Shown in pieces: positions 4,701-22,399 of a stretch of DNA of 32,054 bases. Source of the stretch: Candidatus Gastranaerophilales bacterium (lineage in GTDB: Bacteria; Cyanobacteriota; Vampirovibrionia; Gastranaerophilales; Gastranaerophilaceae); NCBI GenBank assembly GCA_944325535.1, contig CALVAL010000017.1, positions 1-32,054 on the forward strand, written 5' to 3'. A model generated the notes under the pieces. That model saw only the letters and a list, made by a program, of their open reading frames with translations, was not told the origin of the DNA and searched no databases. A program made the translations under genes and the position numbers. How positions within the stretch are numbered: the first letter of the stretch is position 1; every line of letters starts with the position of its first letter.

Positions 4701-5215
4701 TGGCTGATAAAATTATTATATTTTCAGGAAAACAATATTCAGGCAAAGATACTGCAGCAAAGATTTTAATGGAAGAAATGCCTAGCTTTAAGCGTTGTGC
4801 AATGGGCGATATTATAAAAATTGAATATGGAAAAATTCATAATCTCACTTATGAAGAAATTGAAAAAAACAAAGCTCAATATCGCCAGGGACTAATTGAC
4901 CTAGGAAATTGGGGACGAGCTCAGAGTCCTGATTTTTGGATAGAAAAAATTATCTCACAAGAGGGTAACATCGTAGTAACAGATGTAAGGATTAAACATG
5001 AATATGAAGTCTTTAAACAAGCAGGAGCAATATCAATAAGAGTCGAAGCTAATCGTGAAATTCGAGAAGCTCGCGGAGGAAAATTAGTCGGCGAAGATGA
5101 TATTACTGAAGTTGATTTAGATAATATTCAGGATTGGGATTTTCTAATCGACAATAACAAGGATTATGAAACATTAAAGAAAAATGTTTTAGAAATAGTT
5201 CACAAATTAAATTAA
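4700..5215 (+). CDS. P-loop kinase resembling animal-type phosphomevalonate kinase / nucleoside monophosphate kinases
   Basis: 171 aa. The N-terminal P-loop is FSGKQYSGKD (G10-x4-G15-K16-D17). As remembered, the arrangement follows human phosphomevalonate kinase: FSGK-xxSGKD, then an R-x-x-L-I-x-x-G segment with SPDFWIEKI (76-84), then VVTDVR (92-97), then an acidic GEDD and a DN-x-x-DWDFLI-DNN block (131-153). Family members phosphorylate phosphomevalonate or, in related bacterial and phage enzymes, deoxynucleoside monophosphates. No mevalonate gene is nearby, so a nucleotide kinase role is equally possible. It is coupled to yidD (1-bp overlap) and converges on the 511-aa gene with a 4-bp overlap of the 3' ends. 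Confidence 0.65.
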   Translation: MADKIIIFSGKQYSGKDTAAKILMEEMPSFKRCAMGDIIKIEYGKIHNLTYEEIEKNKAQYRQGLIDLGNWGRAQSPDFWIEKIISQEGNIVVTDVRIKHEYEVFKQAGAISIRVEANREIREARGGKLVGEDDITEVDLDNIQDWDFLIDNNKDYETLKKNVLEIVHKLN

Positions 5216-6747
5216 GCATTTTTTACGACCTCCTGTTGTTGATTGATTTGCGGCATAGCAGTAGTTTTGGTTGGATTTGTAGCATTAGTTTGATTTTTTG
5301 CAAGATTATTTTTTTTAGGATTTAAATATTTATCAGCGGTATTTCCAAGCATACTAAGCCCGATTGAAGAAGCAAAGCCAATTCCAAGGCTCTTTGCACC
5401 AGATACTAACATTGCTGTAAGTGCTGTAGAGACTCCTAAACCGGCAATAGCAGGAAATGCAACGGTAATAGCTCTTGAAATTCTATCCTCTTTTGTATCA
5501 GCAGTACCTATTGCGACACCGCTCATTCCGATACCAAATAATGCAGTTAGAACATCTGTAGGAGCACCACCTAACATCAAATCACGTTTTTTATCAAAAT
5601 ACTCTATAGTTTCACTAAAATTAGCTTTTCTTAGAGATTTACCAGAAGTTTTTAATGTACTCTCAAGTGCTACTTTCTCTTCTTTTGAAATAAATGGTGA
5701 AAGCATATCAATTACTTCATTATATTTTCCCTGTTGAGACTTTCCATCGCCTATAATACTATTCACGATATCTTTACCATTTTGTTCAAGACGATTTCTA
5801 TCAGGCATCATAATATCTTCTGCCCAATATGACATATTTTCTCTAAAGTTTTGATAATTATGGCTTGATTTTTCTTTGAATGTACCTTCTGCCTTGAACC
5901 ATTTGAAATTTTTACGATATTCTTGGAATTTAGCTCGAAAATCTTTTTCTAAGTTGGACATTAATTTTTCTTGTTCTTGTAAACGTGAATCTACTTGAGT
6001 TTTTGAAAAATATTCACGAGCTTTTGATATCTCTTTCAATTTACTCTCAAGTTCTAATTGTTTAGACTGTGGTAGTTTTGATTTATAACTTTGAATTAAA
6101 TTCTCTAATTCGTTAAGTTTTTTCGCTGCACCATCATATTTAGAATGGACAGTATGTTTACTTATTGCATCAAAACCATTTGTAATAGCAGTATGTGGCT
6201 TACTCATTACAGTTGTAAATCCATCATCAATTTTTCTTAGAATATTATTGGCTGTTTCATTTTTTACACAACTAAAAGATTTTTTATCTGCACAGAACCA
6301 TTTAAACGCCTGATCCTTCCAAGCGTTGATAGTATTTGTAAATTGAAGACAATCAGCTCCAAATGATAAAAAATCTGATTTGAATTGGTTGAATTGATTT
6401 TTAAAAGATGCTTTATTACCCTTTACAGCTTCTGCATTAGCTTTAGAAGCGTTTTTTCGCATTTTATTAATTAATTTCCCAGAGAATTTTGGGTTTAATA
6501 ATGCCATTAAACTGCCAATTACTAATACTGTACTACCTACAGTGATAGCAGTTCTATGACTTTTTTTCTGTTCTTCATTTTCCTCCGTTTTTACAAATGT
6601 ATCAACAGTTTTATTGATTACATTTTCAACCTTTTCCACAGGTTTTTTTATAATCAAGCTTTTGTCTTTTTCTTGATTATTTTTAAAGCCAATATTATTT
6701 TGAGAATAATACTGATTATAATAACTATTGAAACCTTCAATTGTCAT
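5212..6747 (-). CDS. Large membrane and coiled-coil protein, lineage-specific, function unknown
   Basis: 511 aa, not recognised. The N-terminus is Asn/Tyr/Gln-rich and includes NNIGFKNN (about 17-24), reminiscent of the ISF/FKG tags of the protein at 559-993. A first membrane segment (about 67-84) is followed by a roughly 300-residue charged, helical region with likely coiled coil (about 205-285). A hydrophobic Gly/Ala-rich C-terminal part (about 397-415, 427-450, 452-468) could form two or three membrane segments. The Asn/Thr/Gln-rich tail is probably disordered. The upstream ribosome binding site is weak (AAGG, 12 nt before the ATG). It probably acts at the cell membrane; no enzymatic motif is seen. 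Confidence 0.62.
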   Translation of the reverse strand: MTIEGFNSYYNQYYSQNNIGFKNNQEKDKSLIIKKPVEKVENVINKTVDTFVKTEENEEQKKSHRTAITVGSTVLVIGSLMALLNPKFSGKLINKMRKNASKANAEAVKGNKASFKNQFNQFKSDFLSFGADCLQFTNTINAWKDQAFKWFCADKKSFSCVKNETANNILRKIDDGFTTVMSKPHTAITNGFDAISKHTVHSKYDGAAKKLNELENLIQSYKSKLPQSKQLELESKLKEISKAREYFSKTQVDSRLQEQEKLMSNLEKDFRAKFQEYRKNFKWFKAEGTFKEKSSHNYQNFRENMSYWAEDIMMPDRNRLEQNGKDIVNSIIGDGKSQQGKYNEVIDMLSPFISKEEKVALESTLKTSGKSLRKANFSETIEYFDKKRDLMLGGAPTDVLTALFGIGMSGVAIGTADTKEDRISRAITVAFPAIAGLGVSTALTAMLVSGAKSLGIGFASSIGLSMLGNTADKYLNPKKNNLAKNQTNATNPTKTTAMPQINQQQEVVKNA

Positions 6748-9253: not shown

Positions 9254-9288
9254 AACAAAAAGCCCGATTTAAAATCGGGCTTTTTGTT
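9254..9288. terminator. Bidirectional rho-independent terminator between dnaK and the AbrB-like gene
   Basis: Two 17-nt arms match perfectly as an inverted repeat around one central base, with core AGCCCGATTT/AAATCGGGCT. They are flanked by A5 on the left and T5 on the right, so the structure works in both directions. Confidence 0.9.
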
Positions 9289-9297
9289 TAATAATAA

Positions 9298-9450
9298 TTA
9301 TTTTAAATTTTTCTCTATAATTAATATATTATTTGAAAAAGAGACTTTTATAGAGCCGTTATTATCTATACCCATTACCTTTAAGATAGGCTTTGGAATA
9401 ATTATCCCCCAACTATTTTTACCAACTTTTACCAATTTTTTTATAAGCAT
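9298..9450 (-). CDS. AbrB/MazE-type (SpoVT-AbrB fold) small DNA-binding protein
   Basis: 50 aa. It starts MLIKKLVKVGKNSWGIIIPK and continues PILKVMGIDNNGSIKVSF, then ILIIEK. This is the swapped-hairpin AbrB pattern: K-x-x-K-VG-NSWG-III-PKPILK, a helix, a turn, then LIIEK. Such proteins are antitoxins or transition-state regulators that dimerise and bind AT-rich operators. The start has GGAG at 9456-9459 (complement). No toxin gene is adjacent. It shares a terminator with dnaK and is divergent from an HTH-XRE pair. A 14-bp inverted repeat in the shared upstream region could be the operator. The antisense frame of 75 aa is rejected. Confidence 0.8.
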   Translation of the reverse strand: MLIKKLVKVGKNSWGIIIPKPILKVMGIDNNGSIKVSFSNNILIIEKNLK

Positions 9451-9468
9451 AGTTTCTCCATATTTAAT

Positions 9469-9514
9469 AATTTATCTTATATATAAATATATCTTTTTAA
9501 ATATAAGATAAATT
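9469..9514. repeat. Perfect 14-bp inverted repeat between divergent regulator genes
   Basis: AATTTATCTTATAT (9469-9482) and its exact reverse complement (9501-9514) are separated by 18 nt. The element lies 18 bp upstream of the AbrB-like start and 54 bp upstream of the 68-aa HTH gene. It may be a dimer-binding operator. A terminator role is unlikely because no gene ends here. Confidence 0.6.
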
Positions 9515-9568
9515 TTAATCTTTTTTATTTATTCTGTCAATCTTTTAAAATATACACAAGAGGTTGAC

Positions 9569-9775
9569 ATGAATTCAAAGGAACAAATAAAAGTTATTAT
9601 TGCACGTGAAGGGCTCACTGCAAAACGTTTAGCCGAAATGCTTACACAAAAAACAGGTAAAAAATATACTCAAAGCAGTATAAATAACAAAATCTTTTTA
9701 AGCTCATTTAGATATGATGAGGTGAAGGCTATTGTTGAAATGTTAGGGTATAAAATTAAAATTGAAAAAGACTAA
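9569..9775 (+). CDS. Small helix-turn-helix protein (DUF6471/Cro-like)
   Basis: 68 aa, almost entirely helical. The segment TAKRLAEMLTQKTGKKYTQSS, then INNKIFLSSFRYDEVKAIVEMLGYKI, has the layout of small phage-type HTH regulators. It has a first helix pair, a recognition helix with SSINNKI, then a C-terminal helix and the strand GYKIKI. I recall similar proteins under DUF6471, but the family name is uncertain. The start has AGAGG at 9559-9563, 5 nt before the ATG. The gene is followed after 21 bp by an XRE gene on the same strand, probably one transcript. It may regulate the divergent AbrB-like gene. Confidence 0.65.
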   Translation: MNSKEQIKVIIAREGLTAKRLAEMLTQKTGKKYTQSSINNKIFLSSFRYDEVKAIVEMLGYKIKIEKD

Positions 9776-9796
9776 AGAATATAAAGGTTAAATATT

Positions 9797-10012
9797 TTGA
9801 TAACCTATAATGACGTTTATAAAACTATCGGTAAAAATATCAAAAAATATAGAAATCAACTGGGGCTGACACAACAGCAACTGGCTGATAAATTGGGTAT
9901 GTCATTAAATTTTATAGGGAAAATTGAAGTTGGATATGATCATCCATCATTATACACATTAGTGGATATTTCTAATAGTTTAGAAGTTCCGCTTAAAAAC
10001 TTTTTTGAATAA
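9797..10012 (+). CDS. XRE-family transcriptional regulator (single HTH)
   Basis: 71 aa with one HTH_3 domain covering nearly the whole protein: IGKNIKKYRNQLGLTQQQLADKLGMSLNFIGKIE then VPLKNFF. It binds DNA as a dimer; the target is unknown. The start is TTG at 9797 with AAGG at 9785-9788. The next ATG is far inside the frame, and the HTH needs the residues before it, so TTG is favoured. It follows the 68-aa HTH gene by 21 bp and ends at a bidirectional terminator shared with adk. Confidence 0.8.
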   Translation: MITYNDVYKTIGKNIKKYRNQLGLTQQQLADKLGMSLNFIGKIEVGYDHPSLYTLVDISNSLEVPLKNFFE

Positions 10013-10040
10013 AAAAATCGGGTTATAAAACCCGATTTTT
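10013..10040. terminator. Bidirectional terminator between the XRE gene and adk
   Basis: AAAAATCGGGTT, loop ATAA, AACCCGATTTTT: a 12-bp perfect stem with A and T runs on both sides. It overlaps the adk stop codon by two bases. Confidence 0.88.
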
Positions 10041-21874: not shown

Positions 21875-22399
21875 ATGAAAAATAATTTAGTTTCTTTCGA
21901 TGTATTACAGGAAAAAATTTTTACAATTAGAAATAAGCGTATTATGATTGATAGAGATTTGGCTGAATTATATGGAATTGAAACTAAAAAGCTAAATCAA
22001 GCAGTCAAAAGAAATCTAAGTAGATTTCCAGATGATTTCATGTTTCAGCTTACTGATGAAGAACAAAAGGAGCTGGTCACAAATTGTGACCGCCTCAAGC
22101 GATTAAAATTCAGTACAAGTAATGCATATGCATTTACTGAACATGGAGTTACAATGCTTTCTAGCGTTTTAAACAGCAAACAGGCTATCGAAATAAATGT
22201 TCAAGTAGTAAGGGCTTTTATACAATTACGCCAATTTGCGTTAGAAAATAAAGATTTAGCAAAAAGAGTTGCAGAGCTTGAACATTATTTCATCCAACAT
22301 TGCAAAGATTACAAAACAGATATAGAAGACATAAGAGAAGCTATAGACCTGTTAATGGATAGAACGAAATCTACAAAAATTGGATTTAAAGTTGAATAG
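21875..22399 (+). CDS. ORF6N domain DNA-binding protein (phage-type)
   Basis: 174 aa. The N-terminal ORF6N domain (about 10-100) shows KIFTIRNKRIMIDRDLAELYG, KKLNQAVKRNLSRFP-DDFMFQLT and YAFTEHGVTMLSSVL. The C-terminal part is a helical coiled region (about 105-165). ORF6N proteins come from phages and integrated elements and are thought to bind DNA as antirepressors or regulators. No other phage gene is nearby, so this is an isolated, apparently intact acquisition now placed 12 bp after a histidine kinase (AAGGAT ribosome binding site). Its role in that transcript is unknown. Confidence 0.88.
   Translation: MKNNLVSFDVLQEKIFTIRNKRIMIDRDLAELYGIETKKLNQAVKRNLSRFPDDFMFQLTDEEQKELVTNCDRLKRLKFSTSNAYAFTEHGVTMLSSVLNSKQAIEINVQVVRAFIQLRQFALENKDLAKRVAELEHYFIQHCKDYKTDIEDIREAIDLLMDRTKSTKIGFKVE

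Follow-up and report, generated by a model that had tools for sequence, protein, structure and literature searches.

Three short genes for DNA-binding proteins lie side by side in a genome of Candidatus Gastranaerophilales, one of them facing away from the other two across a perfect inverted repeat. Do they form a single regulatory module, and which of the proteins would act on the repeat? The window, that is, the whole stretch of DNA analysed here, is contig C17 (CALVAL010000017.1 of GenBank assembly GCA_944325535.1; 32,054 nucleotides), part of the metagenome-assembled genome of a gut bacterium (1.99 Mb, 114 contigs). Gastranaerophilales and Cyanobacteria belong to the same wider group. Most genomes compared below are metagenome-assembled, and the named relatives of the window's AbrB-like proteins are nearly all from metagenome assemblies of Candidatus Gastranaerophilales. 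A preliminary description had treated the three genes as an isolated module inserted between dnaK and adk, possibly a compact bistable switch or an antitoxin-type set that had lost its toxin.

The locus and its three proteins

All three small open reading frames were found where they had been reported, and the block is indeed bounded by perfect hairpins with T tracts:

9254–9288: terminator hairpin in the dnaK/abrB50 gap, 17-nt perfect arms, T tract
9298–9450, minus strand: abrB50, ORF for a putative DNA-binding protein of 50 aa, AbrB/MazE-like and with a single domain; probably the unit's target gene
9569–9775, plus strand: hth68, ORF for a 68-aa HTH protein, putatively lambda-repressor-like; probably the unit's regulator
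9797–10012, plus strand: xre71, ORF for a 71-aa XRE-family HTH protein, TTG start; neighbour outside the divergent unit
10013–10040: terminator hairpin in the xre71/adk gap, 12-nt perfect arms, T tract

No adjacent toxin gene was found among the neighbours in the window, as had also been described. Elsewhere in the window, an ORF6N-domain gene of the phage antirepressor type lies at 21875–22399 between histidine kinase and folylpolyglutamate synthase-like genes. Stretches of the type ISFCG, ISFRA, LTFKG or IGFKN recur near the N-termini of hypothetical proteins (559–993 and 5212–6747); a simple regex over 436 long ORFs revealed no N-terminal enrichment of them.

By Pfam, XRE71 belongs clearly to HTH_3 (E 1e-15). 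AbrB50 of the window scores 16 bits against MazE_antitoxin (PF04014), below the 24.7 cut-off; a related AbrB50 reaches 31.5 bits, and profile A1 recovers the window protein at E 5.5e-18. Against structures of MazE and AbrB, the AbrB50 profile aligns with the DNA-binding part (E 0.001–0.1). At 50 aa in all, the protein stops where the DNA-binding domain stops and has no C-terminal toxin-binding extension; of the 82 residues of MazE, the alignment reaches only as far as about residue 50. For HTH68, the Pfam match to DUF6471 (22.3 bits) likewise lies below its cut-off (26.8). A four-helix fold is predicted (single-sequence model, pLDDT 74), with structural matches to the 434, P22 c2 and TP901-1 CI repressors; repressor N-domains and POU domains are among the top matches, all of them weak (E >0.4). 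HTH68 may thus be a lambda-repressor-like DNA-binding protein, a weak fold assignment taken from the model. Compared with a 96% identical orthologue, hth68 has a dN/dS of about 0.03. A viral origin of the unit was considered and rejected: IMG/VR holds no relative of AbrB50 or hth68, and HTH68 has one phage match at 34% and one plasmid match at 29%.

Synteny separates xre71 from the abrB50–hth68 pair

In a sample of 65 genomes of the genus, gene order around dnaK and adk is strongly shuffled. Among 30 adk loci fetched, dnaK stands beside adk only in the window's own genome (G000), and across 30 dnaK loci the gene after dnaK differs in nearly every species. There is therefore no ancestral interval into which a block could have been inserted, and with no empty dnaK–adk interval among the loci fetched the proposed insertion is not supported. 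The order dnaK–abrB–hth68 recurs in a second species (G061), in the same orientation and with inverted arms of 13 bp at the corresponding position; G064, apparently close to G061, has a different gene at that place beside dnaK. Three further genomes (G043, G051, G063) carry a 96% identical hth68 with neither abrB50 nor the inverted repeat.

The third gene has a different history. Orthologues of xre71 lie elsewhere: the one in G055 faces recG, and those of G037 and G042 are close to adk. Several of them combine a TACGTG..CACGTA inverted repeat directly upstream with an ATG start. A conserved operator-like repeat, TTACGTG-N8-CACGTA, overlaps TTGTCA directly upstream of the orthologues in L101, L103, L105 and L106 and is missing in the window. 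There, hth68 occupies the place of the orthologues' upstream region, and xre71 starts with TTG one codon before an ATA at the position of the orthologues' ATG. The location of the orthologues, the replacement of the operator by hth68 and the altered start together indicate that xre71 is, by sequence comparison, a neighbour from another syntenic block, stripped of its own control region. The protein still appears constrained, and the gene may be co-transcribed by read-through from hth68. Of the three-protein cluster around a repeat that had been described, abrB50, hth68 and the repeat stand as a recurrent divergent unit (in G061, and with repeats enriched order-wide), xre71 drops out, and an isolated three-gene module is not supported.

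XRE71-like genes in L103, L105, L110, L111 and L114 are divergent from small helical or small 'ILIDLDGVLN' HAD-like proteins, and XRE71 would therefore seem to make up a third class of regulator alongside the two considered next.

AbrB50 and HTH68 in divergent pairs across the order

Searched with a profile of 13 sequences, 175 of 286 genomes of the order, from 35 of 50 genera, contain AbrB50; matches in other members of the phylum are weaker. For 105 of 131 catalogued AbrB50 genes, a divergent ORF starts 65–135 bp away (median 97). When only ATG starts are counted, the share with a divergent ORF at 75–130 bp is 68%, compared with 17% in a set of control genes among which some of the partners are still present. 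Among the partners, 84 are small proteins (about 14 of them XRE proteins), 15 are prepilin-like and 6 are of other kinds; one helical family is predicted to form a two-helix hairpin. Inverted repeats with arms of at least 12 are abundant in AbrB50 upstreams (17 seen, 0.14 expected). Partner types map onto the AbrB50 tree with few changes (11, compared with 28.9 when shuffled), so the pairs have mostly been inherited together, with several swaps.

HTH68 genes are arranged in a similar manner. At 41 of 52 hth68 loci a divergent ATG ORF begins 80–150 bp away, with distances clustered at about 127–145 bp. As with AbrB50, the partners comprise small proteins (small helical ones included), XRE proteins and prepilins. 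The two families draw on the same pool of small helical, XRE and prepilin-like partners. AbrB50 itself is the partner only in the window and G061. Inverted repeats with arms of at least 12 occur 7 times in 46 hth68 upstream regions (0.2 expected), and at the sequence level the HTH68 family has palindromic operator-like sites near its own promoter. Close hth68 relatives share a layout with which the window aligns: an hth68 promoter of the form TTGTCA-18-TATAAT, overlapped by a TTGACA promoter that serves the partner, with palindromic sites in tandem.

Prepilin-like genes (FTLAEVLITLGIIGVVAAMTLP...) are divergent from AbrB50 in L204, L208, L211, L215, L236, L240, L242, L250, L251, L254, L256, L258 and L268, and from hth68 in L312–L314, L323, L328 and L332–L335. 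This suggests that in many Gastranaerophilales individual pilin-like genes each have a private mini-regulator.

These surveys bear on the proposal that the locus is an antitoxin set, a MazE without its MazF. AbrB50 does resemble the DNA-binding half of MazE, and XRE71 resembles HipB-type antitoxins at the family level. Yet Pfam and PADLOC give no toxin-family match among 30 representative partners, no AbrB50 orthologue was seen beside a MazF, PIN or Doc gene that it neutralises, AbrB50 is too short for a toxin-binding tail, and the order-wide arrangement is divergent, not co-directional. We give the loss of a toxin next to no credence. Chance proximity of three unrelated genes, with the repeat as a by-product of AT-rich sequence, fares scarcely better and is very improbable: gene order in the genus is strongly shuffled and xre71 is indeed an unrelated neighbour, but dnaK–abrB50–hth68 recurs in G061, and spacing and repeats are conserved across the order.

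The inverted repeat and the promoters

The abrB50–hth68 intergenic region (9451–9568) is 118 bp long with 16% GC and contains the following elements:

9469–9482: left arm of the inverted repeat, with half-site TTATCTTATAT at 9472–9482; same core upstream of hth68 in L312, L313, L314 and L049
9501–9514: right arm of the inverted repeat, with half-site ATATAAGATAA at 9501–9511; overlaps the abrB50 -10 and predicted start
9512–9540, minus strand: abrB50 promoter, TTGACA (9540–9535), 17-bp spacer, TAAAAT (9517–9512); 11/12 match
9529–9539: third half-site-like TTATTC, then CTGTCA; matches the TTATTCnTATTTGTCAA element of other hth68 upstreams by alignment and half-site positions

The 14-bp repeat is exact, as first described, and extends to 19-nt arms at 95%. 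Perfect 14-bp arms were reached in 5 of 5000 dinucleotide-preserving shuffles of the region, and the repeat is unlikely to be a chance product of an AT-rich stretch. The strong abrB50 promoter, counterpart of the partner-strand promoter in other hth68 units, runs through the repeat with its -10 on the right arm. An RNA hairpin in the abrB50 leader was rejected as fitting less well than a DNA operator, since a transcript from the predicted start near 9505 would lack most of the right arm; no Rfam family matched.

All 13 close relatives, and G061 as well, have the family-type hth68 promoter with an 11/12 match. In the window it is not intact, the best match being 8/12 and at another position; hth68 may therefore be weakly expressed here. 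At 9534–9568 the hth68 promoter region is about 16–17 nt shorter than in relatives, with an unrecognisable -10, and the abrB promoter is intact.

Probable assignment of the repeat to HTH68

The repeat had at first been read as travelling with abrB50 as its operator, since a repeat also stands there in G061 but not beside the abrB-less hth68 orthologues. That reading was dropped because hth68 units without AbrB50 carry the same half-sites and the window has no AbrB50 words. The words that recur in AbrB50 upstreams (GTTATAAC, TGTAAAGT and ACATTGTT) occur in 81 of 114 other AbrB50 upstreams and are absent from those of the window and G061. The half-site core ATCTTATAT, by comparison, is found in the window and in 4 of 13 close hth68 upstreams, in none of 37 distant hth68 upstreams and in none of the 114 other AbrB50 upstreams. 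The predicted recognition helix has Asn-Lys in the window and in each of these four carriers but in none of the remaining nine close relatives, which have mostly His-Lys and mostly TTATTC-type sites (core in 5/5 vs 0/9, p 0.0005, a value that ignores relatedness, three of the four carriers being related). Overall, the window HTH68 is closer to L046 and L047 than to the carriers.

The broader half-site pattern TTAT(TC/CT/CC) averages 3.15 per upstream in the 13 close hth68 relatives, compared with 0.76 in shuffles, and is not enriched in AbrB50 upstreams (0.39 vs 0.41). The window has three, a count that is by itself marginal (276 of 5000 shuffles), and a profile HMM built on the hth68 operator region could not tell this AT-rich window from shuffles. 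In two relatives the arms change in concert: the L313 palindrome TTATCTTA-AATA-TAAGATAA corresponds to TTAGCTTA-AATA-TAAGCTAA in L314. The matched change lies about 115–90 bp upstream of hth68 (TTATCTT..AAGATAA vs TTAGCTT..AAGCTAA).

From the restriction of the core to hth68 upstreams, the Asn-Lys association and the missing AbrB50 words, the repeat is best read as a candidate HTH68 operator with AbrB50 as the target; since the abrB promoter runs through it, HTH68 probably represses abrB50. Ownership by AbrB50, which would then repress its own promoter and perhaps hth68 as target, seems unlikely, albeit with several observations in its favour: the wealth of inverted repeats in AbrB50 upstreams order-wide, the similar position of the repeat in the window and G061 (18–64 and 19–57 bp upstream of abrB50), and its absence beside the abrB50-less 96% orthologues. 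Weighing against it, besides the missing words and the distribution of the core, is the place of these two AbrB50 proteins on the longest branches of the AbrB50 tree. The two HTH68-paired proteins may or may not form one clade there (AU p 0.31).

If the two proteins repressed each other through overlapping sites, as lambda CI and Cro do, the pair would be the compact bistable switch initially suggested. The presence of several operator-like sites where the promoters of two divergent regulators stand back to back is compatible with this, and the HTH68-type sites are there; but no AbrB50 site was recognised in the shared region, the hth68 promoter appears degraded and most relatives of either gene face a non-regulator. 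A switch is, in our view, improbable.

Discussion

From recurrence, spacing, repeat enrichment, promoter position and half-site sharing with hth68 relatives, we infer a two-gene divergent unit in which control probably runs from HTH68 to AbrB50. HTH68 would bind palindromic half-sites (ATCTTATAT) within the 118 bp between the genes, two of which form the inverted repeat where the abrB50 promoter has its -10 and start; by covering that region it would repress abrB50, and probably its own gene too. AbrB50, a bare AbrB DNA-binding domain, would be the output, acting on other sites. Against this reading stand the 96% hth68 orthologues that lack abrB50 and the repeat, and the apparently degraded hth68 promoter of the window. 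Modules in which HTH68, AbrB50 or an XRE protein faces a small helical, XRE or prepilin-like protein are common in Gastranaerophilales, and the pair would be their regulator-facing-regulator form. As judged from sequence, this order-wide kind of divergent unit is real, and the window is an unusual example of it.

Parallels exist with several known systems. Lambda-type repressors (CI/Cro, P22 c2, 434, TP901-1 CI) also pair a small HTH protein, here with a weakly matching predicted fold, with palindromic operators between back-to-back promoters, the sites here being candidates. HTH68 differs in lacking a CI-type C-terminal domain and phage genes, and its units differ in operator sequence and in the divergent partner, which is AbrB50, a helical protein or a prepilin. 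With MazE/AbrB antitoxins (PF04014), AbrB50 shares an AbrB-type DNA-binding domain, as its profile suggests, and autoregulation through inverted repeats is likely in related loci; it differ​s in having neither toxin gene nor toxin-binding tail, and in a divergent orientation with partners that include prepilins and HTH proteins. The same type of domain is found in Bacillus AbrB and cyanobacterial cyAbrB, but AbrB50 would consist of it alone and is paired locally with one divergent gene. As in autoregulated LysR or MarR pairs, a regulator would diverge from its target across a shared operator; here, however, several unrelated single-domain regulators draw on one partner pool, and a regulator can occupy the target's place.

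More tentatively, and with rather less confidence than in the pair itself, these loci may be lineage-wide combinatorial cassettes, each a single-domain regulator (AbrB50, HTH68 or XRE71-like) with its own palindromic operator, divergent from a pooled small partner, the HTH68–AbrB50 pair linking classes. If so, one cassette class would control another in this pair, giving wired cascades or switches. No description of such units was found in open-licence papers, where a two-gene regulatory unit that recurs through the order with different partners is a previously unremarked feature. The link between Asn-Lys and ATCTTATAT offers a direct and cheap prediction of DNA-binding specificity. Gastranaerophilales are common gut bacteria known mostly from metagenomes, and a recurring cassette logic, its operators recognisable and its partners interchangeable and in part prepilin-like surface proteins, would give a first handle on how they regulate small proteins and pili.
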